A DNA stretch of 26,519 bases from a virus. The notes below the pieces were generated by a model that was not told where the DNA came from, ran no database searches, and worked only from the letters and a program-made list of their open reading frames with translations. The stretch covers positions 1 to 26,519 of IMG/VR virus record IMGVR_UViG_3300030108_003867. The stretch is one strand, 5' to 3'. Of this stretch, positions 557-17,166 are shown piece after piece (within the stretch, counting starts at the first letter, position 1; each line of letters opens with the position of its first letter). A program made the position numbers and the translations under genes.

Positions 557-1183
557 ATGTCTAAACGATTACTAAGAGAATTTCACGCACTATGCCCCGA
601 TGGGATGTGTCTAGATCTATTAACTGAAAGAGAGAAAAAGGAAGTGGTCCAAGAAGGCGTGGTATACTTGACAGGACGTATTCAGACGGCTGATAAGAAA
701 AACGGCAATGGTCGTGTTTACCCGGAGAAAGTTCTCAAAAGAGAAATGGACAATTACATGAAAATTGTCAAAGACAATCGTGCCACTGGTGAACTTGATC
801 ATCCGGATGATTCTGTCATCAACCTTAAAAACGTTTCTCACATGGTAACAGATTGTTGGTGGGAAGGAAAGGATGTGATGGGGAAGATTAAAGTTCTTGA
901 CACGCCAAGTGGAAGAATATTAAAGGACCTAATTAATGCTGGTGTTAAGCTTGGCATCTCTTCACGCGGACTTGGCTCTGTTAAAGAGTCGATGGGTGTG
1001 ACAACTGTAGAAGAAGACTTCCAGTTGATTTGTTTCGATATTGTTTCAGAACCATCAACTCCAGATGCCTATGTATTTCCCAAAGGTCAAGGAGGCGGAA
1101 TGAAAATGGCGTTCTCTACAAAATTGCGAGAACAGAGAGAGTCAAACATTGACGGATTATTTAAAAAGATTCTTGGAGACTAA
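557..1183 (+). CDS. 21: Prohead core protease, T4 gp21-like (peptidase family S80)
   Basis: A 208-aa protein, close in length to T4 gp21. It is expected to sit inside the prohead and to cleave scaffold and capsid proteins after (L/I)-X-E before packaging. Visible family features are GRVYP (52-56), GELDHP (78-83, probable catalytic His82), GISSRGLGSV (133-142, nucleophile Ser135 or Ser136) and FDIVSEPSTPDA (160-171, acidic residue in the third active-site region). The order His, Ser, Asp fits the herpes-protease-like fold of this family. AAGAGG at 545-550 is the ribosome site. The gene lies about 13 kb upstream of its expected substrates gp22 and gp23, whereas T4 keeps 21, 22 and 23 adjacent. 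Confidence 0.93.
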   Translation: MSKRLLREFHALCPDGMCLDLLTEREKKEVVQEGVVYLTGRIQTADKKNGNGRVYPEKVLKREMDNYMKIVKDNRATGELDHPDDSVINLKNVSHMVTDCWWEGKDVMGKIKVLDTPSGRILKDLINAGVKLGISSRGLGSVKESMGVTTVEEDFQLICFDIVSEPSTPDAYVFPKGQGGGMKMAFSTKLREQRESNIDGLFKKILGD

Positions 1184-1591
1184 ATGAACAAGGAACAACT
1201 TAAAAAAACTTTGAGACCAATGATCAAAGAATGTATTAAAGAAGTGATTTTTGAGGAAGGAATACTTTCTTCAATCATTTCGGAGGTCGTAAAAGGGACT
1301 GCTCAACCTCTTGTTGAGTCTCGTCAACCAACCTATCAACAACCTCAAGTAGACTATGAAGCCAAACAAAGAGAAGAGAAAGAGCGAAGAAGAAAAATCT
1401 TAGACTCAATTGGTAGAGATGCATATAACGGCGTCGACTTGTTCGAAGGCACACAGCCTCTAAAGGAAAGCAGATCTACAGCTCCACATGGCTCTAAAGC
1501 TTTGGATGGTATAGCACCCAACGACCCAGGCGTAAATCTTGCTGCTTTAGGCATCAACACTAGCATTTGGTCTAAGCTGGCAGGAAATTAA
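1184..1591 (+). CDS. Unknown small protein next to the prohead protease
   Basis: A 135-aa protein without a recognised domain. It starts directly after the protease stop codon (TAA then ATG sharing bases around 1181-1186), which implies translational coupling. Residues 1-40 are an amphipathic helix (NKEQLKKTLRPMIKECIKEV), followed by a Pro/Gln-rich linker, a charged helix near 58-73 (KQREEKERRRKIL) and a Gly/Ala/Asn-rich tail. The segment DLFEGT fits the T4 gp21 cleavage rule (L/I)-X-E before G or A. That and the position make a prohead-core or virion role plausible, but this is inference. The N-terminal helix resembles in style that of the gene at 107. Confidence 0.78.
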   Translation: MNKEQLKKTLRPMIKECIKEVIFEEGILSSIISEVVKGTAQPLVESRQPTYQQPQVDYEAKQREEKERRRKILDSIGRDAYNGVDLFEGTQPLKESRSTAPHGSKALDGIAPNDPGVNLAALGINTSIWSKLAGN

Positions 1592-1592
1592 A

Positions 1593-1781
1593 ATGGCATC
1601 AAATTACAAGGTTAGGCCTCGCAAAAATGAAAGTGGCGAGCGCATGATTAAAAGATTTATCAAGAAGTGCAAGAAGCTTGGGATTATTAATGAAGTACGC
1701 GACCGCAAAGAATTCAAATCAAAGTCCGAAAGAAAAAGAATTGCTAGAAGAAAAGCGGCGAGAAATAATAACAAAAAGTAA
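1593..1781 (+). CDS. rpsU: Phage-encoded ribosomal protein bS21 homologue
   Basis: A 62-aa, highly basic protein. The layout follows bS21: KVRPRKNES at the start (compare KVRENEPFD in E. coli), the central helix IKRFIKKCKKLGIINEVRDR (compare RRFKRSCEKAGVLAEVRRR), then an aromatic residue and ERKR (ERKRIARRKAAR). The YEKP-like step is replaced by FKSKS. bS21 binds the 30S subunit near the anti-Shine-Dalgarno end of 16S rRNA and affects initiation; homologues are known in pelagiphages and other uncultured phages. Here it sits between an unknown head-region gene and fibre genes, 1 nt after the preceding stop, so it would be made with structural proteins. A basic nucleic-acid-binding virion protein is the less likely alternative. 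Confidence 0.85.
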   Translation: MASNYKVRPRKNESGERMIKRFIKKCKKLGIINEVRDRKEFKSKSERKRIARRKAARNNNKK

Positions 1782-1809: not shown

Positions 1810-2226
1810 ATGAGTAAATATAATACTGGATTACAAAATGTTGGTAATTATTTGGTTTCTGGTCGACCACACATAGATCAGGTAACTTTATCTACAAATG
1901 CTAATCACTCTGAAAGGGTGCAATTTTCCTCTGTGACTAAGAAAATTATCGTTAGAACAACTTCGTCTCACGCTGTTAGGATTCATTTTGCACCATTTAC
2001 TGGATCTGGGCCATATGGCTACACAAACAACGCATCAAGCAACAATAATTTTATAACACTATCTGGCTCTGGTCAGATTGAACTAGACGTTAAGTGCAAA
2101 GAAGTTTTTATCTCAGCTCCTGCTGGTGCATATAGTTCTGATGTAGTTGAGGTTTATGGTGAACTCACTAATATTCCTGCCGGAAGAATGTTTAGTTTAG
2201 ATGGTGTAGCCGGAGTGACTAGCTGA
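1810..2226 (+). CDS. Small virion surface protein, compact paralogue
   Basis: A 138-aa, Ser/Thr/Gly-rich beta protein, probably a virion structural or decoration protein. It is clearly paralogous to the next gene: both begin MSKYN-GL-NVG-Y--SGRP, both have F--VTKKI-V near residues 38-48, and both end with a PAG/SG-IEL-VK-K--F segment and LTNIP(A/S)GRM. This copy has only a short Gly/Asn loop (about 62-80) where the next gene carries a large insertion. AAAGAGGTG (1795-1803) gives the ribosome site. The TGATG overlap with the following gene implies coupling. Exact location on the particle is not known; capsid decoration or fibre attachment are both possible. Confidence 0.75.
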   Translation: MSKYNTGLQNVGNYLVSGRPHIDQVTLSTNANHSERVQFSSVTKKIIVRTTSSHAVRIHFAPFTGSGPYGYTNNASSNNNFITLSGSGQIELDVKCKEVFISAPAGAYSSDVVEVYGELTNIPAGRMFSLDGVAGVTS

Positions 2227-3263
2227 TGAGTAAATATAATGTTGGATTAAATAATGTCGGATCCTATCAAGCCTCGGGTCGGCCTTTCTTAAAGACCGTT
2301 ACATCGCTAGCATCAAATGCTACAGAATATATAAAGTTCGACAATGTTACAAAAAAGATAAGAGTCAAAAATCACTCGACATCAGGTAAATTAAAAATTG
2401 GGTTTGCCGACAATGCTCGGAGAGCTTATGACATGCCAAACGGTGTCAGCGACAGATTCGATGGAACCTTGGCGAGTAGCCCAGGCATATCTGCCGTCAC
2501 GGTTTCTTTTTGGGTAAAAGATAGAACAACTGATACACTAGCAAGGGTTGTGGAATTTACCGGAACCGGAGTATCAGACACAAGAGTTCAAGGTTATGGA
2601 GCAGGTGGGATTAGATTTAGAATCCAAGGAAACACTCAAAATTCAGCAGCTTCGAACCTAACGTCCCAAAATTCTTGGCATCAAATCACCACTGTGTTGA
2701 CTGGGACAGATAGTAAAGTTTATGTAGATGGTACCCTAGCGGTTAGCAACCCAACAGCAATAGTGGATCCTACTGGTATTTCTTTTGGCGATACTACGAC
2801 TGCAAATCACGACGAACTTTATGATGAGATTTATGTTTATAATACGGCATTTACAGCAGCAGAGGTTCTCGAGTTATATAATGAAGGTTCCTATCTTGAC
2901 CCAAGAGATCATTCAAAATCATCAAACTTGCAGTCTTGGTGGGCGTTCGAAGACAATACTTACAGAACATATTTTTCCACCAACGATACAACAACAACTA
3001 TTGTTGATCGAATTGGAAGCAATAATTTAACAAAAGGCGGCAGTGGTACTGGTGCTTTCGTAAATGGAAGACAACTAGACACAGCTATAAACTCTCACTC
3101 AATTATAATACCTGCAGGCGGAGAAATTGAATTAAGTGTAAAAACTAAGTCAATGTTTTTATTCGCAGACGGAGCAACGCAAAATTTTGATGTTTATGCT
3201 TCATTGACAAACATACCATCTGGGAGAATGTATGATCTAACCGGCGCAGGAATTGATGCGTAA
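2226..3263 (+). CDS. Paralogous virion protein with an inserted LamG-like lectin domain
   Basis: A 345-aa protein. Residues 1-62 and 286-345 match the two halves of the preceding 138-aa protein (SKYNVGLNNVGSYQASGRP; ELSVKTKSMF; LTNIPSGRMYDL). Between them lies about 220 aa with concanavalin A/LamG features: VTVSFWVKDR (91-100), SWHQITTVLTGTDSKVYVDG (150-169), ELYDEIYVYNTAFTAAEVLELYNEG (197-221, quoted in part as DEIYVYNTAF plus AAEVLELYN) and the frequent partner segment LQSWWAFEDN. Such domains commonly bind sugars. The inference is a surface protein that displays a carbohydrate-binding module. It starts inside the stop codon of its paralogue. Confidence 0.82.
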   Translation: MSKYNVGLNNVGSYQASGRPFLKTVTSLASNATEYIKFDNVTKKIRVKNHSTSGKLKIGFADNARRAYDMPNGVSDRFDGTLASSPGISAVTVSFWVKDRTTDTLARVVEFTGTGVSDTRVQGYGAGGIRFRIQGNTQNSAASNLTSQNSWHQITTVLTGTDSKVYVDGTLAVSNPTAIVDPTGISFGDTTTANHDELYDEIYVYNTAFTAAEVLELYNEGSYLDPRDHSKSSNLQSWWAFEDNTYRTYFSTNDTTTTIVDRIGSNNLTKGGSGTGAFVNGRQLDTAINSHSIIIPAGGEIELSVKTKSMFLFADGATQNFDVYASLTNIPSGRMYDLTGAGIDA

Positions 3264-3287: not shown

Positions 3288-3362
3288 ATGTTATTAGGAA
3301 AAACACTATCAGTTGCTAAAAACCGGTTTGTGCGCTTGTGTTTAGGAGGCGCAAATGGCTGA
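3288..3362 (+). CDS. Possible 24-aa peptide gene or leader
   Basis: A short ORF beginning MLLGKTLSVAKNRF. It has a good ribosome site (AGGTGG, 3278-3283) 4 nt upstream of its ATG. Its last codons include the ribosome site (GGAGG) and ATG of the large fibre gene, and its TGA overlaps that gene's first codons, an arrangement typical of translational coupling. No homology recognised. It could equally be chance within a 91-nt gap. Confidence 0.3.
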   Translation: MLLGKTLSVAKNRFVRLCLGGANG

Positions 3363-6300
3363 TTTTGGATGGGCATTTGTAAAAAGCAATCTATTAACTG
3401 GCTCAGCACCTCCTGCTGGAGCTGTTCAATATAGTAGCGGCAATGAGAAGTTGGCAGCATCAGGCGACTTCATGTTTATATCGTCTTCTACGTCTCAATT
3501 AAATTTAACTGGGACACTGAATGTTTCTGGTACAATCAATGCAAATGAATATAATGTTACTGTAACAAATCAAAACGTTATAAATTTAACAGCCACTGGT
3601 TCAACTAAGTTTGGAGATACAAACGATGACTTACACAGATTCACTGGGTCAGTCAATGTTAAAGGAGTCATCTCCGCTTCTAACAATATATCAGCGTCTG
3701 CTTTCTATGGCAATGGCGCTAACTTAACAAATATTATCGGTGGAGCAAATACACAAATTCAATTTAATAATTCTGGTGATTTTGCTGGATCTAGCAATCT
3801 TACATTTGATGGCACAAAATTAAGCGTCTTGGGGAATGTGTCTGCTTCAACAAACATTTCTGCTTCCGGTTTTTATGGCGATGGTTCTAACCTAACAAAT
3901 ATAGTTGGAGGATCAAATACACAAATTCAATTTAATAACTCCGGAGATTTTGGCGGATCTAGTAATCTTACATTCGATGGGACAAAACTAAGCGTCATAG
4001 GTAATGTGTCTGCTTCAACAAATATTTCTGCTTCTGGCTTTTATGGCAATGGCGCTAACATTAGCGGTGTCGTAAAGAGTCCCGCAGGATCTACAACACA
4101 AGTACAATTTAATAATGGTGGCTCATTCGCTGGGTCAAATAATTTAACTTTTGCTTCTAACAACCTAAGAGTCACTGGTAGTGTGTTGGTTAGTGGACCC
4201 ATCTCGGCTTCGGCTAACATTTCCGCTTCGGCTTTTTATGGTAACGGAGCAAACCTTACTGGTATTGCCGCAACTTTAGATCAAGTCACAGACAATGGAA
4301 ATACTACTACAAATGCATTAACCGCATCTGCCTTAAAACTAACGGGGCTGGTAGCAGGAACAGCAGCTAATACAAAATTTTTAGCTTTAAATTCTAATAA
4401 TAATATTGTATTGACATCTTCCTCAGGTGGTGGAGCAGGTGGCAATATTGGCTCCGCCGAGGATGGATCTTATGCTGATGGTTTATTTTCAGATTTTGTA
4501 TCTACAACTCCAATTGGGACTGCTATTGACAAGTTTAATGAAATATTAAAAATAATTGTACCAGGTCCTGCTCCAGCTGTTGACAGGATAAACTATACAA
4601 ATACTAGTGGTATAGCCACTAAACTTACTTTTACAAATCAGGGTCAGGCACCAGACGGATATACTGATGTCGCCTCTACTGGTTCTTTCACATCCCCTCC
4701 AGTTATAAATGAACAATACACTGTTGCAACTGCTGGTGAAGATTTTAGACTTGGGGTTTATAATGGAACACAAGAGATCACTGGTGTTATAAACTTTCAT
4801 GTTTCTGAGGAACTTAAATCATCGCAAGTTAACTATTCTCACAATGCTTTTGGTAACGCTGAGAGCGGATCTTTAAAGCTTATTGTTAACGGATCATTGC
4901 TGCACACATTAAATTTGACAGCATCCGGAACTGGGAATCCAAATACAGGCTCTGCTGTTTTCACGGGATCAAACGGCTCTGGCTTTTTTGACGTTTCGGT
5001 GCCCACCTCTGCTAGAGATCAGAACGGATCGACATACGACATATTCAAACATAGGACATCAAAATACGTTATTGACCCACAAGATCAAAGAAAAGGCTGG
5101 AACATAGCGAAAGTTGAACATCATTATGGATCAACAATGTATATTACAAATTTTGCCCAATGGTTTAATGATACAGACTCTCCCTCTCAAGCAATGTCGG
5201 TTTCAAACTCAAAAGTTACTTTTACTGGAAATGGCTCAAAGTATTTATCAGGGGTTCAGTATTTTAGATCAGCTTCTTTGGTTTACAATGCTGATGTATC
5301 AAATGTGTATAAATTTACTTACCCAACTGGAAATGTGGTTACTTTTAACAAAACATCTAACATAAATGCGATATCGGCACAATCATTACCAGCCACGGAT
5401 GGGACAGATTTGTTTAACAAGGTATTGAGATTGACCGCTTCAACGAATACAAATGACAACACAATGCTAAGTGATTCTACAACGATATCAATTAGTTTAG
5501 ATCACCCCTTAAAAACAAATCTGTCAGCAGCCGGATCAGTTACTACATCTCAAATACTAATTTATCATGTAGACACAGCAAATGCAAACTTATCTGAAAA
5601 CTTTGACTTAGAAGACTTTAGAATAACAAACGGATCTTATAGTACTCAAGCATCTGTAACTAATGGGGCCGCATCTTGGAATTCTCAAAATCACATGACA
5701 TCTTCTGGTGCCTCAGGGCACACCGATGGGTTGATGATGTACAATGGGTCTCTTAGGTCACCCTTGCAAGGGTTAAATTCCGGAAACTTTTCTTCGATAT
5801 CTAATGGTCCAGCTGGGAATCCAAACTATTCTGGTGTCACAGGAACCAGAACTTTCTACAGAAAACTACAAAATACTACTGGGTCTCCTGTTAGAGATTT
5901 AAAAATAACATCTACAAAAAGTAGCAGAATAAACAATAGTTCTCTTGTAGCAAATAATGTTAAGTTTTCCATTAAAGTGCCCGAGAGCACTGCTTTTTTA
6001 GACATATCCCAGAACTTTGCTTATGGCAACGTCTCCTCAGATGGAGATGGTGCTTTGATAAATGGAGCGTCGGACAATAGCAATACTGGCACTACGAACT
6101 CTGGCAACTCTGTACATTGTATTACATTTGGAACTGCATCTATACCTGCAGGTGGATATGCTGTAATAAAAATAGAAGCTGATGAATCTTGGACTGGTAA
6201 TTTTGACACATTACAATTCCAGTTGGGTGCATCCGATGTGTCTGCTCCGACAGAATCTCAAGCGCTTGACGATATCGATCTTGACGACGCAGCAGGTGAA

Positions 6301-8022
6301 ACCGCTAAACTTTCTTTTGGTTCATCTAATATTGTCGCAGGATACACCAATGTTGCTGGTGGTGTTGGCTCAATGGATTCCGTAAACTCCAATGGTACAT
6401 ATACCGATAACTCAGATACAAACAGAGGTGTGTTCAAAGTTGCTGAGGTTATGGGCGGGACTTTAAATGAAGATGTTGCTGCTAGTGGAAACAACTTTAC
6501 AGCAAATAGTTTTAAAAATGCATATACTGGATCTTTGCTATTGGTTGTTAATAATTCTACAGCAAGCACTCTTAGTCTTGCAAACTTGAACGCCAATAAC
6601 AATTTAGATGAGAACACTGGATTTAGCGTCGGGGCTGTTGCGTTTTCAACAACAACTGATAACATTCCCGACTACACAAAACCATATAGAACTGGAACAT
6701 ATAGTATTGGCACTGGTCAACAAAGATCTGGTTGGAATTATGCGAAAGTTGTTCATAGAATTGGAGCATCCGATACAACAACAAATTATGTTCAATGGGT
6801 AGTTGATCCATCTGGTAATGTTGACAATACAGCGGTGACCACACCGACCATTTCAAACTTTAATCACCCAACGACATATTATCAGTCAGGTATTGGATAC
6901 TTTGCTTCAAATCCATCGGGCACTTTTGATTTTGTAGGTTCAAACTTTTACAGCAATGTTTACTCTTCAAACGCAGCGGCAATTTCTTTCCCTACAACCA
7001 CAAATTGTTCAGTGTCCAACATTAGAGTTGTGGGCACAGGTATAACAACAGAGGATGAAGACGATTCATCTATTCCAATGCCACCATTAAATAACTCTAG
7101 CGGGTGTGAAACAACGACAATACAAGTAACAGGAACAATGTTGTATAATGGTGCCACGCCTTCAATAAGCGGGGGACTTGGTTTATTTACAGCTCAAAGT
7201 GTTGTAGCTACTGGTAGAATACTACATCCACACAAAACAGACCGAACAACCAACTCTGCTAGCAAAACATCGTTTATGGTCCACTCCGGAGCAATTGGTA
7301 GTACGACACTGACAAACGATGAATACTTTAATACAGAGCACTATAGAATTGTTTCAGGCGCATATGCAAACCAAGCTGCTTTGACATCCTCTACTAATAC
7401 TTGGAATTCACAAACTCATATGAATGCCGCCAATGCTCATGGTGATGGCTTAGCTTCTGTTGCTGGATATGTCTTATCTCCTTTAATGATTGGAAATGAT
7501 GGAGATACTCGCAATACTGCACAAGGTGGATCTTTACAAGCACCAGCAGGAAACCCTAACTACTCAAGTTTAACAGAAAATACTAGAACATACTACAGAT
7601 TGTTTAGATATACCGGAGCTTCAACTGTCGCTAGTTTTACATTAACCCTATACGGAGACGCAACACTTCGGTCGATAGCTCCAACAAATGATCCGTACTA
7701 CGCCGCACTAGGTGCTAATAAAAATTGTAATGTAGAGCTCAAAGTTGCTTATGATCCTAATTTTTCTGGCGCTGACGATCAATCTACTGGATGGACAGAT
7801 GTTGCAAAAATATTTGACTCAGGTAATCAACCAAATAACGACGGAGCAGGTATTAGATCTGGGGCTTCATCCGGTGAAGATGTGTCAATTGATACGAATG
7901 GTCTGGCTCTCACATTAACTTTGGGAACTCGAAGAATTAAGCAAAATCAATACTTTGCTGTGAAAATATCGGCACACAAAAATTGGACAGGATACATCTC
8001 TAGAATACAGGTGGCTTACTAA
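3355..8022 (+). CDS. Large tail-fibre-like protein with repeats and a tandem duplicated domain
   Basis: A 1555-aa protein rich in Ser, Thr, Asn and Gly, typical of trimeric beta-structured phage fibres. Residues about 98-304 hold four copies of a module with NISAS-FYG(N/D)GAN/S and, between copies, TQ(I/V)QFNN-G-FAGS-NLTF, a kind common in marine phage fibre proteins. Residues about 411-968 and 975-1555 are a diverged tandem duplication: matched landmarks are GYTDVA/GYTNVA, QRKGWNIAKVEHH/QRSGWNYAKVVHR, W(N)SQNHM/WNSQTHM and GPAGNPNYS/APAGNPNYS. A role in host binding is inferred. GGAGG at 3345-3349 sets the start. It shares its stop with the start codon of the next gene (TAATG). Confidence 0.82.
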   Translation: MADFGWAFVKSNLLTGSAPPAGAVQYSSGNEKLAASGDFMFISSSTSQLNLTGTLNVSGTINANEYNVTVTNQNVINLTATGSTKFGDTNDDLHRFTGSVNVKGVISASNNISASAFYGNGANLTNIIGGANTQIQFNNSGDFAGSSNLTFDGTKLSVLGNVSASTNISASGFYGDGSNLTNIVGGSNTQIQFNNSGDFGGSSNLTFDGTKLSVIGNVSASTNISASGFYGNGANISGVVKSPAGSTTQVQFNNGGSFAGSNNLTFASNNLRVTGSVLVSGPISASANISASAFYGNGANLTGIAATLDQVTDNGNTTTNALTASALKLTGLVAGTAANTKFLALNSNNNIVLTSSSGGGAGGNIGSAEDGSYADGLFSDFVSTTPIGTAIDKFNEILKIIVPGPAPAVDRINYTNTSGIATKLTFTNQGQAPDGYTDVASTGSFTSPPVINEQYTVATAGEDFRLGVYNGTQEITGVINFHVSEELKSSQVNYSHNAFGNAESGSLKLIVNGSLLHTLNLTASGTGNPNTGSAVFTGSNGSGFFDVSVPTSARDQNGSTYDIFKHRTSKYVIDPQDQRKGWNIAKVEHHYGSTMYITNFAQWFNDTDSPSQAMSVSNSKVTFTGNGSKYLSGVQYFRSASLVYNADVSNVYKFTYPTGNVVTFNKTSNINAISAQSLPATDGTDLFNKVLRLTASTNTNDNTMLSDSTTISISLDHPLKTNLSAAGSVTTSQILIYHVDTANANLSENFDLEDFRITNGSYSTQASVTNGAASWNSQNHMTSSGASGHTDGLMMYNGSLRSPLQGLNSGNFSSISNGPAGNPNYSGVTGTRTFYRKLQNTTGSPVRDLKITSTKSSRINNSSLVANNVKFSIKVPESTAFLDISQNFAYGNVSSDGDGALINGASDNSNTGTTNSGNSVHCITFGTASIPAGGYAVIKIEADESWTGNFDTLQFQLGASDVSAPTESQALDDIDLDDAAGETAKLSFGSSNIVAGYTNVAGGVGSMDSVNSNGTYTDNSDTNRGVFKVAEVMGGTLNEDVAASGNNFTANSFKNAYTGSLLLVVNNSTASTLSLANLNANNNLDENTGFSVGAVAFSTTTDNIPDYTKPYRTGTYSIGTGQQRSGWNYAKVVHRIGASDTTTNYVQWVVDPSGNVDNTAVTTPTISNFNHPTTYYQSGIGYFASNPSGTFDFVGSNFYSNVYSSNAAAISFPTTTNCSVSNIRVVGTGITTEDEDDSSIPMPPLNNSSGCETTTIQVTGTMLYNGATPSISGGLGLFTAQSVVATGRILHPHKTDRTTNSASKTSFMVHSGAIGSTTLTNDEYFNTEHYRIVSGAYANQAALTSSTNTWNSQTHMNAANAHGDGLASVAGYVLSPLMIGNDGDTRNTAQGGSLQAPAGNPNYSSLTENTRTYYRLFRYTGASTVASFTLTLYGDATLRSIAPTNDPYYAALGANKNCNVELKVAYDPNFSGADDQSTGWTDVAKIFDSGNQPNNDGAGIRSGASSGEDVSIDTNGLALTLTLGTRRIKQNQYFAVKISAHKNWTGYISRIQVAY
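3673..4266 (+). repeat. Four tandem fibre modules (NISAS-FYGNGAN)
   Basis: In-frame repeats inside the large fibre gene. The two central units are also close at DNA level with a 168-nt (56-codon) period: the run starting CAAATACACAAATTCAATTT occurs at 3746 and 3914. The fourth unit is more diverged. Confidence 0.8.
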
Positions 8023-9131
8023 TGGCAAAAACTAACGTTACATCAACACAGTTTGCTGCAAAGAAACTGCTTGGAAAAACCCAAACGAGACCATCACTTA
8101 CAGATGCTCAAGAAGCTTACCCTTCAAATGTATCGGTGCCTGGAGCCGGTGTTTTTGCCGAGAGCATCCCAAGAGAGCCTGGTACAAGCTACTATACTAT
8201 GTATTCAGCATCAGCCGGTGCTCCAGCAACTGTTGAGAGAGTTTATTTTGATCTCGTTGCCATTGGAGATGGATACTATGACGGGGACGCAGCGAGCGAG
8301 GATGGTGGCGAAAGCGGTCAAAATGCCGCTAATCACGCATATTACCTAAAACTTCCTTCGAACTACCAAACAACATCTTCTAATCCGAACAAGGGAAGTG
8401 GCAACTTTATAAACAACAAAAGATTATATCTCTCAAGAGGGGGATTACAACTAGTTCCGCCATTCACAACTGATGCTGGTTTGCCCGGATCATCAGGAAA
8501 CAATCGATATTTTGTTGAGATTTATAGTGGAGATCCCTCTGACCCAGCAAACAAGATATCATCCACCGACGCGATTGACTGGCAATTCGACTATTATTCT
8601 GGTATCTTATTTATCCAAGATAGTGCCTCAGCAGCACCTGTCACAGCTTCAGCATATATGTATGTGGGAAAATATCTTGACGAAAAATTAACAGATATAA
8701 GTTCATCATCTGGTAACTCTATAGTCGTAAAAGACGAAGGATCAAACATAACAACTTCAGCATCATCATTTAATTTTGTTGGGGCCTCTGTTGTCGCTAG
8801 CAATAGTGGCAACGATGTAACCGTCACCCTATCTTCAGCTGTATACTCTAGGACGCCAATAAACTCAACAACAACAGCCTCAGTTGATTCAGTGATACTA
8901 GGCGTCTCAGGAACGGCAGCAATTGATATTAGACTTCCATCAGCTGATGCTTATAGTGCCGGTCAAAACTTTATAATTAAAGATGAGAGCGGAGCAGCAA
9001 ATACAAAAAATATAACTATTCGTACAACCGGTGGACAAAAAATAGATGGAGCCTCTTTTATTGTTTTAGAGTCGCCTTATGCTGCTGTCAATATTTATTC
9101 AAATGGAACTGACAAATTCTTCTTATACTAA
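8022..9131 (+). CDS. Tail-fibre or fibre-connector protein
   Basis: A 369-aa structural protein. The N-terminal part (about 1-230) contains IDWQFDYYSGILFIQD followed by a short Ser/Ala segment and AYMYVGKYLDEKL, a pattern I associate with proteins near the baseplate or fibre base in marine T4-like phages. The C-terminal 90 residues form a beta-domain ending QKIDGASFIVLESPYAAVNI and then a terminal KFFLY. The same type of domain ends the next gene (QTIDGATSITLESPLAAVEL, then DLWKVF). The ATG overlaps the stop of the upstream fibre gene, so the two are coupled and probably form one structure. Function as an attachment or trimerisation tip is inferred. Confidence 0.75.
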   Translation: MAKTNVTSTQFAAKKLLGKTQTRPSLTDAQEAYPSNVSVPGAGVFAESIPREPGTSYYTMYSASAGAPATVERVYFDLVAIGDGYYDGDAASEDGGESGQNAANHAYYLKLPSNYQTTSSNPNKGSGNFINNKRLYLSRGGLQLVPPFTTDAGLPGSSGNNRYFVEIYSGDPSDPANKISSTDAIDWQFDYYSGILFIQDSASAAPVTASAYMYVGKYLDEKLTDISSSSGNSIVVKDEGSNITTSASSFNFVGASVVASNSGNDVTVTLSSAVYSRTPINSTTTASVDSVILGVSGTAAIDIRLPSADAYSAGQNFIIKDESGAANTKNITIRTTGGQKIDGASFIVLESPYAAVNIYSNGTDKFFLY

Positions 9132-9161: not shown

Positions 9162-9167
9162 GTGAAT

Positions 9168-9197
9168 TCAAAAGTTCTCTCTTTTGATTCCTTTTTT
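9168..9197 (+). terminator. AT-rich hairpin with T-run, possible terminator
   Basis: TCAAAAG (9168-9174) pairs with CTTTTGA (9181-9187) over loop TTCTCT, followed by TTCC and TTTTTT (9192-9197). The stem is weak (one internal G-C and one C-G pair at ends), so efficiency is doubtful. Confidence 0.4.
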
Positions 9198-9199
9198 GC

Positions 9200-9207
9200 T
9201 ATAAATA
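9200..9207 (+). promoter_or_regulatory. TATAAATA, exact match to T4 late-promoter -10
   Basis: TATAAATA is the consensus T4 late promoter element read by the gp55-type sigma. This copy lies 34 nt upstream of the ATG of the 1002-aa fibre gene, immediately after the hairpin and T-run. The window is AT-rich, so a chance match is possible, but the position is right for a promoter. Confidence 0.5.
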
Positions 9208-9220
9208 TTACAATTATTTT

Positions 9221-9225
9221 GGAGG
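9221..9225 (+). promoter_or_regulatory. Ribosome site GGAGG that fixes the start at 9234
   Basis: GGAGG lies 8 nt before ATG 9234. An in-frame GTG at 9162 would add 24 residues, but it would span the hairpin and TATAAATA element and has no such site. Confidence 0.8.
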
Positions 9226-9233
9226 ATAATAAT

Positions 9234-12200
9234 ATGGCTTATAAATTTCAATTAGGGCCTGCTACGCTTAGTGGCTCTATTACACACAAAGAAGCTCCCG
9301 TATTTAGTTCTGGTTTTAATAATAACGACCAAAACATTACAAATGTTGGAGTTTTGGAGGCGGACACAATTCAAAGTGACGCCGATGGTACTGGGTTAAA
9401 CATCAACTTCGATGGTAACACAACTACAAACAAAATTACTTTAAAAGATAATCTTGCTGATGCTTTGAATATCAACGAAGGTGGCACTTCTTATCTTAAA
9501 TTTACAACAACCAATGATGGCGAGATGATGACTGCTGGAAAGCCTCTCGTGATGAACTCTACAAATTTCCTCGGACTCGGCGGTCCGGATAGTTCAATCT
9601 TTGGATCTGACGCTAACACAATCAATATTGATGGTAACACATCAATTTTGCTTCAACAAGGTGGATCAACAAAGGCAACTGTAAATTCTTCTGGACTTTC
9701 TGTTTCTGGTCAAGTTTCTGGTTCTGGAAATTTGCTAGTAGGCGGAACTGTTCGCCTTGATGGTGTTGCACAAACAGCTGTTGATGTTGATGCTGATAGC
9801 ATTCTTTTTGTTGATGCTACCAACAGCCTTGTCAGAAAAGAAACTATGGGTGCTTTTGCAACGGACTTAGCTGGAGATGGTATCACTGTTGGTTCGAATA
9901 AACTTGCCGTAAATGTTGACGACTCATCTATTGAGACTAATTCTGATGCTATTCGTGTTAAAGCTTCTGGTATCACTAATGCTATGCTAGCTGGATCAAT
10001 TGCTAATGCTAAATTAGAAAACTCTACCATCTCAGGTGTTGCTCTTGGTTCTAATCTTAACGATTTAACTGTAGATAACGCTACACTTGCATTGAACTCT
10101 GGCACAACCTTCAATGGTGGTGCTGCTAGAACAATTTCTGTTAAGGATGGTGGTATTGACACTGACGCTCTTGGAGCAGATGCTGTTACTGCTGCTAAAA
10201 TTGCCGACGATGCGGTTCAACCGGAACACTTGCACAATGATGTATTTGGTCTTGGTTTGGCACCAAATGGCTCATCCAATGCTATTGATGTTCAAGTTGA
10301 TGATTCATCTATTGAAATCAATTCAGACTCACTTCGTGTTAAGGCTTCCGGTGTGACCAACGCTATGTTGGCTGGATCAATTGCTAATGCTAAATTGGCT
10401 AACTCTGCTGTAACTGTTACAGCTGGAGATGGACTTAAAGGTGGGGGCTCTGTATCTCTTGGTGGATCTGTAACCTTAAACGTTGATGTTGATGTTATGG
10501 CTGGTGTTGGTTTAACTGCTGACAACACGAATGAAGAGTTGGATGTATCTGCTGCTCAAACTGGTATTACTAGTATTTTGAACAGTTCCTTAAAAGTTGG
10601 TAGAGGTTCTGATACAGAGTATATTGACTTTAGTACTGATAACCAAATTCACTTTGTTAACAATGACGAAGTTGTGGCAAGAGTTATTTCTGGATCTTTC
10701 GTTGTCCATGGTGACTTACATGTTTCTGGTACAACTACTACTGTAGATTCTACTACCATTCACGTCTCTAGTTCATTCACCTTTGAAGGACCTGTTGATG
10801 CTCACGAAACTAAGCTGGAAGCTGGTACTCCAGTTGCCGATACTACTGTTCAGCTTCCTGAGTTCAGCAGTGCTGGTACTTATTACATGGCTGCTTTTGC
10901 TGCTGATCCAGGTGCAACCGGTGCAATCACAGCAACTCCTGCTGAATTGAATCTTGTTGATGGTGGTACTGCTCGTGGAACTGAAGAAGTTGCTAATGGT
11001 GATGGGTTTTTGCACAATGATGGCGGAACTATGAGAATGACAAACGTTAGCAGCTTGGCTACCTTGTTTGCTGGTAACGGTCTTGCTGCTAGTAATTCTG
11101 TACTGAGATTAGATATCAATGGTATTGCTAGTGCAAAGACCACTCTTGCACAAGCTGACCTTGTAGGTATTTCTGATTCTGCTGATGCTAATGCTGCAAA
11201 GAAAATTACTTTCTCAAATCTTGAAGATCAAATCTTCGGAAATGTTTCTGGTGATGCTCTTATCGCTGCTGGTGGTGCTCTTACCATTCAAGATAGCGCT
11301 GTTGAGAATGATATGTTGGCTGGTTCAATTGCTGACTCAAAACTGAACACAATCTCAACAGCAAACAAAGTTGCTTTGTCTGCTTTGGATATCGACGGCG
11401 GATCAGCTCTTGGTAGTGCAGGTTTGGCTCAAGCTGACTTGTTCATCTTTGATGATGGAGCAGGTGGAACGAACAAGAGTGTAACATTTTCAAACCTTGA
11501 AGATTCAATCTTTGGAAATGTTTCTGGTGACGCTACTATTGCTGCCGGTGGTGCTCTTACCATTGCTAACGATGCCGTAGAGCAAGCAATGATTGCCGAT
11601 GATGCCGTTGGTGCAGACCAGCTAGCTTCAGACGCGGTTGTAAATGCTTCTATTGCCTCGGGAGCGGCGATTGCTCATAGTAAATTAGCTGGTATAACTG
11701 CTGGTTCAATCCTTATGGGTAATGGTTCAGGTGTTGCTACTGCTACTGCTATCTCTGGAGACATAGCTTTGACAGCCCTTGGTGCTACAAGTATTACATC
11801 AAATGCTGTTCACGCCTCTATGCTTAATACTGATATTATTTCTGGTTTGGATGACATTGGCGCTGCTATCGTTTCTACTGATGAGTTGCTCATTAGTGAT
11901 GCTGGTACAATTAGAAGAACTGATGTTTCTAGACTTAAGACTTTTGTTGGTGCTGCCGATGTTGCCGTTTTTGGAAATGCTAATGCTACTCTTGAAGTAG
12001 GTGTAAACTATTCAAATGCTGCACCAGCCGCAGACAGAACTTTGACTCTTCCTGCTTCAGCTGGAATGGTCGTTGGTCAGTCAGTAAAAGTTAAGGCTAA
12101 TGCTGATATGGACAATGGTAACTACATCATTGCTAGAGCTGGTTCTCAAACAATTGACGGCGCAACGTCAATTACATTAGAATCTCCACTTGCTGCTGTT

Positions 12201-12242
12201 GAACTTGTTTATGTTGCTGCTGATCTTTGGAAAGTATTCTAA
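9234..12242 (+). CDS. Long repetitive tail-fibre protein
   Basis: A 1002-aa fibre protein starting MAYKFQLGPATLSGSITHKE. It is built from repeats: VDDSSIE(T/I)NSD--RVKASG(I/V)TNAMLAGSIANAKL appears near residues 228 and 355; a second unit with LAQADL, ITFSNLEDQIFGNVSGDALI and AAGGALTI occurs twice (about 640-690 and 730-780). The C-terminal 78 residues (TLTLPASAGMVVGQSVKVKA ... QTIDGATSITLESPLAAVEL) match the end of the preceding gene in style. The low-complexity, Ala/Asp/Ser/Gly-rich composition suits a long thin trimeric fibre. A strong terminator follows the stop. Host-receptor binding is inferred from family type; the receptor is unknown. Confidence 0.83.
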   Translation: MAYKFQLGPATLSGSITHKEAPVFSSGFNNNDQNITNVGVLEADTIQSDADGTGLNINFDGNTTTNKITLKDNLADALNINEGGTSYLKFTTTNDGEMMTAGKPLVMNSTNFLGLGGPDSSIFGSDANTINIDGNTSILLQQGGSTKATVNSSGLSVSGQVSGSGNLLVGGTVRLDGVAQTAVDVDADSILFVDATNSLVRKETMGAFATDLAGDGITVGSNKLAVNVDDSSIETNSDAIRVKASGITNAMLAGSIANAKLENSTISGVALGSNLNDLTVDNATLALNSGTTFNGGAARTISVKDGGIDTDALGADAVTAAKIADDAVQPEHLHNDVFGLGLAPNGSSNAIDVQVDDSSIEINSDSLRVKASGVTNAMLAGSIANAKLANSAVTVTAGDGLKGGGSVSLGGSVTLNVDVDVMAGVGLTADNTNEELDVSAAQTGITSILNSSLKVGRGSDTEYIDFSTDNQIHFVNNDEVVARVISGSFVVHGDLHVSGTTTTVDSTTIHVSSSFTFEGPVDAHETKLEAGTPVADTTVQLPEFSSAGTYYMAAFAADPGATGAITATPAELNLVDGGTARGTEEVANGDGFLHNDGGTMRMTNVSSLATLFAGNGLAASNSVLRLDINGIASAKTTLAQADLVGISDSADANAAKKITFSNLEDQIFGNVSGDALIAAGGALTIQDSAVENDMLAGSIADSKLNTISTANKVALSALDIDGGSALGSAGLAQADLFIFDDGAGGTNKSVTFSNLEDSIFGNVSGDATIAAGGALTIANDAVEQAMIADDAVGADQLASDAVVNASIASGAAIAHSKLAGITAGSILMGNGSGVATATAISGDIALTALGATSITSNAVHASMLNTDIISGLDDIGAAIVSTDELLISDAGTIRRTDVSRLKTFVGAADVAVFGNANATLEVGVNYSNAAPAADRTLTLPASAGMVVGQSVKVKANADMDNGNYIIARAGSQTIDGATSITLESPLAAVELVYVAADLWKVF
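9915..10411 (+). repeat. Repeated fibre module (DDSSIE-NSD--RVKASG-TNAML)
   Basis: Two in-frame copies of about 105 nt begin near 9915 and 10296 and remain similar at DNA level, including the identical run GCTGGATCAATTGCTAATGC (9990-10010 area and 10371-10390 area). A third partial AMLAGSIA-like copy is near 11312. Confidence 0.7.
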
Positions 12243-12333: not shown

Positions 12334-13332
12334 ATGTCATACAAATATTCGAAAGGGTCTCAGGTAATTGGAGACCTAAAAGCAGCGGATGATACACAAA
12401 GAGATACATTGATTGACTTTGGAGAAGACCAAATTGATTTTCAAACAAGTGGATCCGTAAGATTACAGGTCAACAACGATGGGGTTTACATCCCAGACAC
12501 ATCTACTGATGCTAGTCTTTTTGTTTCTGGTGGCATTCAATTAACGCCGGGAAACCAAGAAGGTATAAGGTTTGCGAACAAAGGTGGCGCTGAGTTAAAT
12601 TTCATATCTTTTCAAGAAGGGAGCGAAGGCGGATCATATAATGCTAGATTGGGCTATAACTCTGAGGAATATATCTTTATAGCACCAGGTCGAGGAGCAG
12701 ACTTCTTCCTTAATACTGGTAAGTCTAGTGGAAACTTTACTTACCCGTTTAGCATTATGGATGACGGGACAGCCAAGTTCACAAAGGGGCTGGAGAGTAG
12801 TTCTGATCGATCAGCAGATGTAGACAGCAATATTGCTTTCTATGTTTCCGGAACATTGGATGGAAACAATGATGCTGTTTTCTTGGGAAGAACAGGTGTT
12901 GGAGTATCCGCTCCAAAAACAACCTTTGATGTCCATCATGACCCAACCGGACTTGCCAATGATACTGGTGGCGGAGAGGTTGTAAAATTTGGTTCTGGAA
13001 CATTGACTGCTGGAAAGCTGTATTACCTTAACGGCTCTACGTGGGCAGAAACGGACGCCGATGGGGTTTCTTATGGTGCGGAGTGCTTATTGGGAATTGC
13101 GCTTGGATCAAGCCCGACAACCAATGGCGTATTGATCAGAGGATTCTTTGACGCCAATAGTTATTTGTCAAACTTTTCAGCTGGAAAAGCTGTATATGTC
13201 AGCACAACTGCTGGTGGTATGGATACAACGAGACCGAGCGCGAGTGGAGACTTTGTTAGAATAGTTGGATATTGCACAACCACAGCGAACGTTATCTATT
13301 TTAATCCATCGACAACTTGGGTTGAATTATAA
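12334..13332 (+). CDS. Tail-fibre-like protein
   Basis: A 332-aa protein beginning MSYKYSKGSQVIGDLKAADD. The N-terminal half has the fibre pattern IDFGEDQIDFQTSGSVRLQV-NDG, related in style to YIDFSTDNQIHFVNNDE in the 1002-aa fibre. The C-terminal region (about 225-332) contains LGIALGSSPTTNGVLIRGFF, YLSNFSAGKAVYVSTTAGGM and GDFVRIVGYCTTTANVIYFN, a compact domain that I recognise from fibre proteins of marine phages though without a known function. GTGAGGATAA upstream supplies the ribosome site. Its stop overlaps the ATG of the LamG protein that follows, suggesting they are made together and perhaps assemble together. Confidence 0.78.
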   Translation: MSYKYSKGSQVIGDLKAADDTQRDTLIDFGEDQIDFQTSGSVRLQVNNDGVYIPDTSTDASLFVSGGIQLTPGNQEGIRFANKGGAELNFISFQEGSEGGSYNARLGYNSEEYIFIAPGRGADFFLNTGKSSGNFTYPFSIMDDGTAKFTKGLESSSDRSADVDSNIAFYVSGTLDGNNDAVFLGRTGVGVSAPKTTFDVHHDPTGLANDTGGGEVVKFGSGTLTAGKLYYLNGSTWAETDADGVSYGAECLLGIALGSSPTTNGVLIRGFFDANSYLSNFSAGKAVYVSTTAGGMDTTRPSASGDFVRIVGYCTTTANVIYFNPSTTWVEL

Positions 13333-14087
13333 TGTCTGGTTTTACAAAAATCATTGGCATTGCTCTCGATAATGTTACCAAGCTAATCGGTGTAAGCCCC
13401 GAAAATATGGAAAAAGTATTTGGGGTTGCCCCTGCTGGTGATGGAGGCGGTGGAGATGAAGGTGAGGGCGCAGGCCTAGAAGAGAGCGGTAGCGGAACTC
13501 TTGTTGGAAACGCCTCTTTATCAAGTGGGGTTTTGAGTCTGGATGGAAATGGAGACTACTTTAGGATTCCGGATGCAGACAACCTTGATCCAGCAGGTGG
13601 GAACTTTTCCGTTCGCTTTTGGTTTAACGCAGCATCCTTCCCAAGTAACTCAAATGATAATATAATAAACAAAATTGCTCCTTGGCAAGGCTATGCCATT
13701 ACCCTATCTACCTCAACAAATATTGGAGGAACCAACTTATCAGCCGGAGGTATTAGTTTCTATACAAACCATGTATCATATGGAGCTGGTTCTCACAAAG
13801 GTGTTGTGCCATCTGGTGGTATATCTTTAAATACATGGCACCACGTTGCAGTTACAATAAACAGCAGCAACAGCCAATTTAAAATCTACTTTGATGGGTC
13901 GCCAGAACTAACTTATACGGCGACATTACCTCAATCAACTGCCGCTGAACTTTGGGTCGGAGCAGGAAGAACTAATGCCTCATCCAATCCGGGGATGTAT
14001 TTCCACGGACAAGTGGATCAACTATTTGTAACTCAGCAATTATTATCTGATTCTGAGATTTCAAACATTTACAATGCTGGTAGATAG
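13332..14087 (+). CDS. LamG/concanavalin A-like lectin-domain virion protein
   Basis: A 251-aa protein. Residues 1-34 contain two related short helices (KIIGIALDNVTKLIGVSPEN, then MEKVFGVAP), probably an anchor. A Gly/Glu-rich linker (36-55) leads into a LamG_3-type jelly-roll: VLSLDGNGDYFRIP (67-80), FSVRFWFNA (92-100), NTWHHVAVTINSSNSQFKIY (167-186), FDGSPEL and the closing VDQLFVTQQLLSDSEISNIY (228-247). The typical role is binding sugar or glycoprotein, so it may be a receptor-binding tip or surface adhesin. It is coupled to the upstream fibre gene by ATAATG overlap. It is the second LamG-type protein in the window; the two are not close copies. Confidence 0.85.
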   Translation: MSGFTKIIGIALDNVTKLIGVSPENMEKVFGVAPAGDGGGGDEGEGAGLEESGSGTLVGNASLSSGVLSLDGNGDYFRIPDADNLDPAGGNFSVRFWFNAASFPSNSNDNIINKIAPWQGYAITLSTSTNIGGTNLSAGGISFYTNHVSYGAGSHKGVVPSGGISLNTWHHVAVTINSSNSQFKIYFDGSPELTYTATLPQSTAAELWVGAGRTNASSNPGMYFHGQVDQLFVTQQLLSDSEISNIYNAGR

Positions 14088-14138: not shown

Positions 14139-14167
14139 GAAGAAATATATTTTTAGGAGATAAATTG

Positions 14168-15316
14168 ATGTCCAACATGTTAGAACAAGCAATCGCTGAT
14201 GCTGCAGCATTAAGAGAACAAGCTATCAAAAATGCTGAACAATCTGTTCTTGATAAGTATTCGAGACAAATTAAAGAAGCAGTAGATCAAATGTTAGAAA
14301 TGGACGATGCTCCCAACAAAGCGAATGAGATTATTAGCGAAGTTGAAGAAGAACTTATGGAACAAGAAGAAGCCCCTGCTATGGCAGAACCAGCAGCGGA
14401 CGCTGGTATTGAAGCTCCTCAAGCATGGGATTCTCGATTTGATGACATCTCAATGAAACTAACCGCAATGGTTGATAATCTCCCAGAAGATGAAAATGGA
14501 ATGATTGATTTAGATCTCGGAGACTTCTCCATTCCTGCTGATGAAGCAGCAGCCGCAGAAGGGGCTCCAGAAGAGCCCGAGGGCGATCTTGGAGAACTCG
14601 GAGGGGATGAACCCGAAGAAGGTGAAGATGAAGGCTTAGATAACCTTATTGGAGACCTAGAAGGCGATGATGAAACAGAAACCATGGATGATGAAGATAT
14701 TGATCTTCAACTTCAAGAAGTTCTACGCCTGTTGGGAGAAGAGATGGAGCTTGATTATGATCCACAAATTGATTCTCTTGGAAAGTGGAGAAACAATAGA
14801 TCAAGAGAAGAGTTTAATCAAGATGCTGCTGATCTATTATACGAAGAAGAATCAGAAGAAGAAAAAGTCGATGAGGAAAAAGAAGAACTCATGGGCAAAG
14901 TTAACGAATTACATGAGACCGTAGAGAGTCTGACGTCACAAAACGAACAACTAGTTGACGTCCTATCCAAGTTGGAGATCCACCTTGAGGAGTCTTTATT
15001 GTCAAACGCAAAACTTTTATATCAAAACCGCACACTAGCTGATGCCTCCCTGAATGAGCGACAAAAGTCAAAAATTGTCGAAGCCATTGCTAATGCGGAG
15101 TCTCCGAAAGAAGCTAAAAATCTTCACGAGACACTCAAAACTACAGTGGGATCGACGCCTAATAGCAAAAGAGGTCCAAAATCGCTTAGTGAGTCAGTCA
15201 ATAGAAGATCGAACTTAAGTTCTATGTTGAATTCAAGACAAAACATTAACGAAAGCAAGCAGAGCGCCGACCCTCTTATGGAAAAGATGCAGAAGCTTGC
15301 AGGCATAAAAAAATAA
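14168..15316 (+). CDS. 22: Prohead core scaffold protein, T4 gp22-like
   Basis: A 382-aa acidic protein placed directly before the major capsid gene, as in T4. Start: ATG 14168 has AGGAGA (14155-14160) at a 7-nt gap; a TTG just before it would add one residue. The N-terminal part is an Ala/Glu-rich helix (AIADAAALREQAIKNAEQSV), followed by a strongly acidic Glu/Asp/Pro/Gly region (about 55-190), a coiled coil (about 225-300; KEELMGKVNELHETVESLTS) and a basic Ser/Asn/Arg-rich tail. LLYQNRTLADASLNERQKSK resembles scaffold C-terminal parts of marine T4-like phages. QIKEAV and KIVEAI fit gp21 cleavage sites. It is expected to be assembled in the prohead core and then degraded. T4 gp22 is shorter (269 aa); the acidic insert accounts for much of the difference. 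Confidence 0.87.
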   Translation: MSNMLEQAIADAAALREQAIKNAEQSVLDKYSRQIKEAVDQMLEMDDAPNKANEIISEVEEELMEQEEAPAMAEPAADAGIEAPQAWDSRFDDISMKLTAMVDNLPEDENGMIDLDLGDFSIPADEAAAAEGAPEEPEGDLGELGGDEPEEGEDEGLDNLIGDLEGDDETETMDDEDIDLQLQEVLRLLGEEMELDYDPQIDSLGKWRNNRSREEFNQDAADLLYEEESEEEKVDEEKEELMGKVNELHETVESLTSQNEQLVDVLSKLEIHLEESLLSNAKLLYQNRTLADASLNERQKSKIVEAIANAESPKEAKNLHETLKTTVGSTPNSKRGPKSLSESVNRRSNLSSMLNSRQNINESKQSADPLMEKMQKLAGIKK

Positions 15317-15333: not shown

Positions 15334-17166
15334 ATGTCTATTATCGAAACTCTTACAGAGGGCATCGTCAATCGTGACTTAAGTCGTGAAGGCGAAGCGC
15401 TTCTGAATAAGTGGACCGCAACTGGTCTGCTTGAGGGCCTTGACGGCGCTCATAAATCAAACATGGCTGTTCTTCTCGAGAACCAAGCTAAGTCATTGTT
15501 GAAGGAATCTTCATCTATGGCAGCTGGTGACGTTGAAGGTTTTGCCGCTGTTGCTTTTCCAATCGTTCGTCGTGTATTCGCCGGATTGATTGCTAACGAT
15601 CTCGTAAGCGTTCAGCCGATGTCATTGCCATCTGGTCTGATCTTCTTCCTTGACTTCGTATTTTCACCTAATCTTGCTGGTGAAGCTGACATTGATACTC
15701 GCTTGGGTAATGATGTAAATAAATCAATTTATGGTACTGACCGAGTTGGTTCTCAAATCACTGGTGGTGTTAACTTGTCTGACGCTGATACCAAAGCTGG
15801 ATTTGGCGGACCTGGGCGTGATGGTTCTGTAGGTTACGCTTACGCATCCGCGACTGGAAGTTTGGAAACTGCACTGACAGCTGATGCTGAAAACACTGCT
15901 GTGATTTTTACACTTGATGGCGCTGTCTCCGCAGCAAATGCTAAAAGAATTCAATATGATCCAGACCTTCTGGCTATTACAGATAGTAGCAAGAGAGTTG
16001 TTGTCCTTGATATTGATTCGGCAAACATCACCTCGACACAAGGTCTTCCAGATTTTGACAATCTTTCTGCTTTTATTGCTGATGGAACCGGTCTTAATTC
16101 TGCAATCACAGCTGTAACAGCTAATACTGCTGTCCAGATTCGCCGTCTATCGGCTCGTGTACTGGATGCAGATTCTGATAATACACCTGCTGTATCTGGT
16201 ACTGATGCTATCAGACTAGTATATACGATTGCTGCTGGTGATGCCTCGGATCAAACAGCTACTGCTTTGAACTCAACATTTCCAACTGCAAACTTTACGA
16301 TGCCAGTTGTAGATAGTATCGCTCAAGGCTCTGTCCTTGGTGGGGTTGGGTCTTCATCCAACTTGTTCGCTCTTGAAGGGCAAGATGCGCTTCCAGAAAT
16401 CGACATCAAGGTAGATAGTATCGCTATCACAGCACAAACCAAAAAGTTGAAAGCAAAGTGGACTCCTGAATTAGGACAAGACTTGAATGCTTATCACAAC
16501 ATTGATGCTGAGGTTGAGTTGACTTCTATCCTTTCAGAGCAAATTGCTTTGGAAATTGATCGTGAGATTCTTGCTGACCTTGTAAATGGTGCTACTGCTG
16601 CTACTTACTACTGGTCTCGTTCTCCCGGTTTGTTTTTAAATCGTGAAACTGGTCTTGAAGTTGGTGCATCTTCTGCTGCTCCTGACTTTACTGGTACGGT
16701 TTCTGAATGGTATGAGACTTTGATTGAAACAATCAATGACGTATCGGCTCAGATCCACAGAAAGACCTTGCGTGGTGGCGCAACTCATATTATTTGCTCT
16801 CCTGAAGTTGCAAACATCCTTGAGTTTACCGCTGGTTTCCGTGCAAACGTAACCGCCGATGCTGACAAAGGTGACATTGGAGCAACTAAGGTTGGTTCTT
16901 TGAATCGTAAGTTTGACGTTATCGTCGATCCTTACTTCCCGCGTCAAGTCATCTTGGTTGCTCGTATCGGTTCCTCTTTCCTTGAAAGTGGATATGTGTA
17001 CGCACCATACGTGCCACTGCAAACTACACCAACGATCTTCGGACCAGAAGACTTCGTACCTAGAAAGGGTGTCATGACTCGCTATGCGAAGAAAATGGTT
17101 CGCCCTGATATGTACGGTTTGGTTATCTGCCGTGATCTTCTTGGTGGAGAATACTCTGCTACCTAA
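15334..17166 (+). CDS. 23: Major capsid protein, T4 gp23-like
   Basis: A 610-aa HK97-fold capsid protein. Family signatures: LLNKW (23-27), LLENQAKSLLKE (47-58), FPIVRRVFAGLIANDLVSVQ (75-94) with PMSLPSG, KLKAKWTPELGQDLNAYHNI (365-385 area), DAEVELTSILSEQIALEIDR (386-406 area) and the C-terminal PYVPLQTTPTIFGPEDFVPR region. The N-terminal propeptide is probably removed by gp21 near LLKE-S (58/59) or DVE-G (68/69). Residues about 170-355 form a long variable insertion, making it larger than T4 gp23 (521 aa). AAGGAG precedes the ATG at 15334; gp22 ends 17 nt upstream. Arginine codons are mostly CGT/CGC (about 20 of 26), unlike neighbouring genes that use AGA, consistent with very high expression. 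A strong terminator follows. Confidence 0.97.
   Translation: MSIIETLTEGIVNRDLSREGEALLNKWTATGLLEGLDGAHKSNMAVLLENQAKSLLKESSSMAAGDVEGFAAVAFPIVRRVFAGLIANDLVSVQPMSLPSGLIFFLDFVFSPNLAGEADIDTRLGNDVNKSIYGTDRVGSQITGGVNLSDADTKAGFGGPGRDGSVGYAYASATGSLETALTADAENTAVIFTLDGAVSAANAKRIQYDPDLLAITDSSKRVVVLDIDSANITSTQGLPDFDNLSAFIADGTGLNSAITAVTANTAVQIRRLSARVLDADSDNTPAVSGTDAIRLVYTIAAGDASDQTATALNSTFPTANFTMPVVDSIAQGSVLGGVGSSSNLFALEGQDALPEIDIKVDSIAITAQTKKLKAKWTPELGQDLNAYHNIDAEVELTSILSEQIALEIDREILADLVNGATAATYYWSRSPGLFLNRETGLEVGASSAAPDFTGTVSEWYETLIETINDVSAQIHRKTLRGGATHIICSPEVANILEFTAGFRANVTADADKGDIGATKVGSLNRKFDVIVDPYFPRQVILVARIGSSFLESGYVYAPYVPLQTTPTIFGPEDFVPRKGVMTRYAKKMVRPDMYGLVICRDLLGGEYSAT

Follow-up and report, generated by a model that had tools for sequence, protein, structure and literature searches.

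Two adjacent genes in the head gene cluster of a T4-like phage, orf138 and orf345, are paralogues as judged by sequence comparison, and we consider it somewhat better than an even chance (probability about 0.55) that they encode small virion-surface proteins in which one fixed loop acts as a port for the exchange of LamG domains, with the plain protein forming a base on the head and the LamG domain pointing outward as an adhesin. The DNA analyzed (the window) is a virus record from IMG/VR, 26,519 bases long, that carries a T4-like head and tail module, in which the sheath and tube genes were also recognized by position and sequence. By its genes, which include both gp23 and an S77 prohead protease, the source is a T4-like phage that lies far from T4 itself, and the best matches of its gp23 include Microcystis phage Mel-JY01, the immuto phages (immutoviruses) and RM378. 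The features discussed below, all on the + strand, are as follows:

557..1183, +, prohead protease gp21 (S77; PF03420, E 5.8e-33), which adjoins the array, upstream of it, in most relatives
1184..1591, +, orf135, a conserved hypothetical neighbour whose position is kept in relatives
1593..1781, +, ribosomal-protein-S21-like ORF (phrog_21469, E 2e-4), position conserved
1810..2226, +, orf138, plain scaffold protein of 138 aa, a single predicted beta-sandwich/jelly roll
2224..2228, +, TGATG stop/start overlap of orf138 and orf345, read from the sequence
2226..3263, +, orf345, second scaffold copy with a LamG insert, 345 aa
2226..2408, +, N-terminal scaffold half of orf345 (aa 1-61), with strands that agree with those of orf138
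2409..3092, +, LamG or pentraxin/PAPP-A-like insert of orf345 (aa 62-289), an exchangeable cassette (PF13385 and predicted fold; exchange seen in relatives)
3093..3263, +, C-terminal scaffold half of orf345 (aa 290-345), from BLASTP and profile comparison
3355..8022, +, repeat-containing fibre-like protein of 1,555 aa, named from its sequence and usually next after the array
14165..15316, +, gp22-like prohead scaffold, assigned by position and from relatives (minimal phages, L020 and L021 among them, have it directly 3' of their one plain gene)
15334..17166, +, major capsid protein gp23 (PF07068, E 1.4e-70)

Some other features of the region were also observed. The S21-like ORF is conserved in the head gene cluster (it is also present at L171 9143-9370), and phage Mel-JY01 has an annotated RpsU at the matching place. 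A second LamG protein, separate from the scaffold family, is encoded just before gp22 (13332-14087; PF13385, E 1.2e-17). The 1,555-aa fibre-like protein gave no match in a Pfam scan, and by eye it has near-identical tandem repeats near its N-terminus, apparently two-fold repeated. Two additional fibre-like proteins (8022-9131 and 9162-12242) have C-terminal domains that look related by eye (...IDGA..I.LESP.AAV...).

The two ORFs, of 138 and 345 aa, lie at the coordinates that an initial annotation of this DNA had given for them, and its central claim, that the second gene keeps both halves of the first with a LamG domain between them, was borne out by BLASTP and profile comparison as follows: residues 1-62 of the two proteins are 50% identical (E 2e-14), and their C-terminal halves align with an E value of 1e-11 (39% identity over residues 280-341). 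Against a profile built only from the plain genes of other contigs, orf345 reaches 119.7 bits; the match is in two parts, residues 3-66 and residues 285-344, which join at profile positions 69/71, a single split point. Every insert-bearing protein (56/56) scores between 68.6 and 128.5 bits against the plain-gene profile, and the best of 1,120 shuffled insert-bearing proteins scores 7.3 bits. From these comparisons we conclude that both flanks of orf345 are homologous to orf138 around one insertion point. The same annotation described the insert as about 220 aa in place of a short loop, which is broadly correct and can be refined to about 220-230 aa replacing a loop of about 17 aa.

AlphaFold2 models were built from alignments of viral-contig relatives, 48 sequences for orf345 (pLDDT 86, pTM 0.84) and 97 for orf138 (pLDDT 79, pTM 0.71). 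The plain protein is modelled as a small jelly-roll-like sandwich with strands at residues 20-26, 34-38, 41-50 and 56-59 before the insertion site and 82-84, 88-92, 98-102 and 112-123 after it, and the orf345 scaffold has strands at 21-28, 33-37, 40-49 and 55-59 before the site and 293-296, 300-303, 309-315 and 319-331 after it. There are thus four strands on each side of the insertion site in both models, and when they are compared by strand positions the eight correspond, so that two independent models predict that the flanks make one common domain in the two proteins. The initial annotation had proposed such structure predictions as a check and had named flanks that form no common domain, or that align no better than background, as evidence against its reading; neither was found, since the strands agree and the flanks align.

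The insert of orf345 matches PF13385 (E 2.7e-10, 41 bits against a Pfam cut-off of 27.6), and 45 of the 48 insert-bearing proteins with inserts of 216-330 aa among the matches listed also match LamG at E<=0.01. Residues 63-292 of the orf345 model match the PAPP-A LG domain with Z 19.5 (200 aligned residues, rmsd 3.2) and pentraxins with Z 17-18, and according to this model the insert is one complete LG/ConA-like domain over its whole length. It therefore resembles known LamG/ConA-like domains (PF13385; PAPP-A LG, pentraxins) in sequence profile, predicted fold and complete length, and it differs from the usual LamG in that it sits within a loop of a second domain and is exchanged between phages as a single piece (below). 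A circularly permuted LamG was suspected because WWAFEDN...IVDRIGSNNL sits at the end of the insert, but this idea was dropped when the model was found to align end-to-end with pentraxin and PAPP-A. The LamG insert may bind glycans; the fold alone does not imply carbohydrate binding, and LamG domains also make protein-protein contacts.

How widespread is this arrangement? A scan of IMG/VR with the alignment of plain proteins found 464 stretches that encode a scaffold relative, of which the best 80 were kept; the best 80 loci were kept per scan, so the architecture counts given here are not frequencies. When viral contigs were scanned with the single orf345 sequence no match was obtained, whereas the alignment-based scan did find relatives. 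One scaffold relative was found in a MAG contig. No relative was found in 50,697 annotated phage records by tblastn with four diverse queries, and the scaffold profile had no match in the head regions of Mel-JY01, immuto and RM378. In the PHROGs orf138 had no match at E<=0.01, and there is likewise no Pfam family for the scaffold; one of 97 plain proteins matches a PHROG (E 0.00047), an unnamed family.

Separate N-flank and C-flank profiles, run on the ORFs of the relatives, gave 171 unique proteins that have both flanks among the matches listed, and in these the flanks are separated by no more than 35 aa in 114 proteins and by 216-1,514 aa in 56. Between these two size classes there is a single protein, at 172 aa, which is a fused double gene, and none at 36-110 aa. 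All five of the proteins scanned that have inserts of 531-1,514 aa contain at least two LamG matches each. Large inserts in the same loop with at least two LamG matches are found at L143 6710-11461, L147 6710-11563, L155 3298-6141 and L049 6838-8718, and L079 6710-8290 has a 424-aa insert in this loop without a Pfam match, possibly another cargo domain. A search for different inserts at the same loop, also suggested by the initial annotation, thus turned up exchanged LamG types, LamG in tandem and, once, an insert with no Pfam match.

At these loci gp21 is followed by orf135, the S21-like ORF and one or two plain genes; the insert-bearing gene closes the array, and the long fibre-like gene usually comes next. 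The family sits between the prohead protease gp21 and the scaffold and capsid genes gp22-gp23. The array takes three forms: one plain gene, a plain gene plus an insert-bearing gene (28 unique arrays among the matches listed) or two plain genes plus an insert-bearing gene (21 unique arrays, likewise). In three loci the two plain copies are fused to one protein of 284-293 aa with the insert-bearing gene next (L066 5986-6840, L068 5986-6840 and L081 5986-6864), which hints that neighbouring subunits touch in the assembly. Extra scaffold copies were seen far from the array in the records of L007 (130026-130409, - strand) and L063 (103116-103496, + strand), and L120 has an insert-bearing copy upstream of gp21 (5971-7107).

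In the window the TGA of orf138 and the ATG of orf345 have the A at 2226 in common, a one-base overlap that had been thought to keep the two products in proportion. The plain and insert-bearing genes overlap by -1 or -4 in 28/28 two-gene arrays; in the three-gene arrays the plain genes overlap each other (21/21) and the lectin-bearing gene follows after a gap of 2-15 nt (21/21). Because of that gap, overlap is not required for a lectin copy, and the proposed role in proportioning is weakened accordingly: the overlap is a mark of an operon and not of a fixed ratio. A copy ratio of plain to lectin-bearing product is presumed here.

The flanks also bear on the origin of the two kinds of copy. A tree of joined N and C flanks, which is a short alignment of 115 columns, sorts the proteins by array position (7 label changes, versus 72 with shuffled labels), and first, second and insert-bearing copies fall apart on it. 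Thirty-eight of the 41 first copies form one clade (support 97), and these 38 are all of the first copies of insert-bearing arrays. When all insert-bearing copies were forced into one clade the likelihood was better than that of the free quick search (p-AU 0.736). Duplication followed by LamG insertion into one loop, as originally suggested, is thus well supported in that plain-only phages exist, plain and insert-bearing groups separate and a single clade of insert-bearing copies is not rejected; duplication, one insertion and then descent appears to be the simplest reading, compatible with the tree and not rejected by it, and with 115 columns it is not proof.

After the insertion, as the sequences show, LamG has been exchanged repeatedly among relatives while the scaffold stayed. 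The amino acid identities of the N flank, insert and C flank are 100/58/100% for L005/L006, 97/39/95% for L037/L038, 87/30/100% for L123/L141 and 92/42/89% for L014/L018. In 100-base windows, five near-identical locus pairs have nucleotide identities that are mostly 90-99% outside the insert and about 40-75% over it; the dip spans approximately bases 200-870 of the gene and the C flank is back at >=90%, so that within the gene the dip is limited to the insert (it is milder in L011/L012 than in the other pairs). Could such inserts instead have diversified in place by rapid selection without exchange, the dip being accelerated point evolution of a ligand-binding domain? Nearly identical flanks around a different insert would fit this, but in three pairs the flanks on both sides are about 95% identical, whereas the insert contains indels and drops to a nucleotide identity near 40-60%, and the reverse combination also occurs: the same insert (74-80% amino acid identity) is found in scaffolds that are 48-53% identical, for example L040 versus L031 (48/80/51%) and L038 versus L031 (49/77/53%). 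Exchange explains nearly the same cassette in different scaffolds and diversification in place does not. In addition, trees of the insert and of the flanks disagree at well-supported groupings: by their flanks L037, L038, L040, L044 and L052 form a clade (support 99/100) that the insert sequences reject (p-AU 0.0003), the scaffold of the window is sister to that of L004 (99/90) and its insert is sister to that of L006 (100/100), and L005 and L006 have identical flanks with inserts of different sub-types (the L005 insert groups with L036). Diversification in place is already disfavoured by these data, and we think it very improbable.

Variation at these loci is not unique to LamG, since the first plain copies vary more than their neighbours in some pairs and the fibre gene shows identity dips of its own. 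For example, the first plain gene of L036 is only 55% identical to those of L005/L006 and the orf135 and S21 neighbours are 95-97% identical; the plain gene appears also to have been replaced, or to be evolving fast, in some pairs.

Where in the virion might these proteins be? A surface location on the head is probable, because the array sits among the head genes and the solved structures nearest in fold are jelly rolls from the capsid vertex or capsid surface. The orf138 model matches chain Y of SH1 6qt9 best (Z 8.2), then HCIV-1 VP9 6h9c (Z 8.1), and it aligns with the HFTV1 turret 8qpg over 96 residues at Z 7.5; almost the same scores are obtained with picornavirus capsids, cupins and endospore appendage proteins, which are unrelated, and values of 7.5-8.2 are in the range of common arrangements, so that this predicted likeness is suggestive, a hint only. 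No penton or turret chain was matched when PDB sequences were searched with the scaffold profile at E<=1. Because a gp24-type vertex protein would compete for the vertex role, such a protein was sought in nine large relatives (the records of L007, L037, L049, L063, L072, L087, L100, L144 and L147, 120-192 kb), and each of these records, which may be incomplete, contains a single gp23 gene and no further member of the Gp23 family.

Fibre genes come after the array, so a role at the tail fibres or neck must also be weighed: the scaffold proteins could be adaptors or tips of the neighbouring long fibres, not head proteins, with LamG a swapped receptor-binding tip that changes host range. The long fibre-like gene is usually the next one after the insert-bearing gene, baseplate proteins are among the fold matches (8gtc_T, Z 6.4; 9f4b, Z 6.7), and phage host-contact proteins are known to be mosaic (PMC10684548). 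However, in six relatives (L020, L021, L074, L092, L154 and L170) a lone plain gene is followed immediately by gp22-gp23, without an intervening fibre gene, the plain copies of other relatives precede unrelated fibre types, and wherever neighbours are readable the array is inside the head cluster, the exceptions being the extra copies (L120 and the distant ones in the L007 and L063 records). A fibre-adaptor role thus seems to us unlikely, if well worth keeping in mind.

The head position would equally suit a decoration protein, and LamG and jelly-roll domains can be purely structural, so that LamG in the lectin-bearing copy could stabilize the shell by protein-protein contacts with no host-binding role. 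But a domain that contacts the capsid is unlikely to be replaced by versions only 30-58% identical in a scaffold that is 87-100% identical, and we consider a purely structural role improbable.

The preferred reading, an exchangeable LamG adhesin on a head-bound base, can be set out as follows. A single ancestral jelly-roll gene between gp21 and gp22, a state suggested by the plain-only relatives, would have been duplicated, and one copy would have gained a complete LamG domain in the loop that joins its fourth and fifth strands, with which a single event is compatible. This loop would then have become a fixed port in which LamG was swapped among relatives and in some lineages grew to two or more LamG domains, the exchange presumably being driven by homologous recombination in the conserved, near-identical flanks. 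On the head, the plain copies would assemble into an oligomeric base and the last copy would present LamG outward, where it may serve as a glycan-binding adhesin that makes reversible first contact with host glycans.

Several known systems resemble parts of this scheme. The HFTV1 turret comprises a base protein seated on capsid hexamers and a head protein in which a carbohydrate-binding domain is predicted (PMC12494034); its chains (gp30 base, gp31 head; 8QPG) provide a works-like comparison, with a small chain of similar size and suggestively similar predicted fold and a carbohydrate-binding part above the capsid. In HFTV1, however, base and head are separate proteins, whereas in our phage the lectin forms part of a paralogue of the plain protein, both of them probably on the head, and no sequence similarity was found. 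VP9 of HCIV-1, a penton that is the adaptor for spikes (PMC6414509), is like its SH1 counterpart a single jelly roll and, as noted above, a top fold match to orf138, but these are tailless membrane-containing viruses with no sequence similarity to the proteins described here, and the phage of the window builds its capsid from a gp23 of the HK97 type. Neither lectins nor gp21/gp22 are mentioned in the Far-T4 paper (PMC4360716), and a literature search for LamG in phage heads, or for these scaffold proteins, found none. The scaffold family had no Pfam entry, PHROG entry or cultured member in our searches.

T4 Hoc-type proteins are optional Ig-like domain proteins on the head that are thought to aid adhesion; they have a different fold, and the scaffold here is without a PHROG or Pfam family. 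Mosaic domain exchange is a usual finding in tail fibres, spikes and similar proteins, and the present case is unlike those in that it affects a loop inside a small paralogue whose neighbouring sister copy is empty. Protein-fragment shuffling is reported to give mosaic phage host-contact proteins (PMC10684548), in which a domain is likewise swapped within a conserved protein frame. A mosaic phage adhesion protein is thus a known kind of system, and what is new is a nested lectin, swapped at one constant loop, next to a sister copy that carries no insert.

More tentatively, and at something short of an even chance, a widespread, uncultured T4-like lineage may carry a head socket array of one to three jelly-roll paralogues, the last with a lectin-exchange loop, by which the adhesion specificity of the head would change with capsid and tail untouched. 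Contact of phages with their hosts is generally attributed to tail fibres; should these proteins prove to be on the head, there would be a modular adhesion system there. The family, which is absent from current phage libraries, demonstrates that the loop of a small viral jelly roll tolerates whole-domain inserts. It also constitutes a natural experiment, one scaffold with different lectins and one lectin in different scaffolds, and thereby a matched domain set that is ready for testing what these phage lectins bind.
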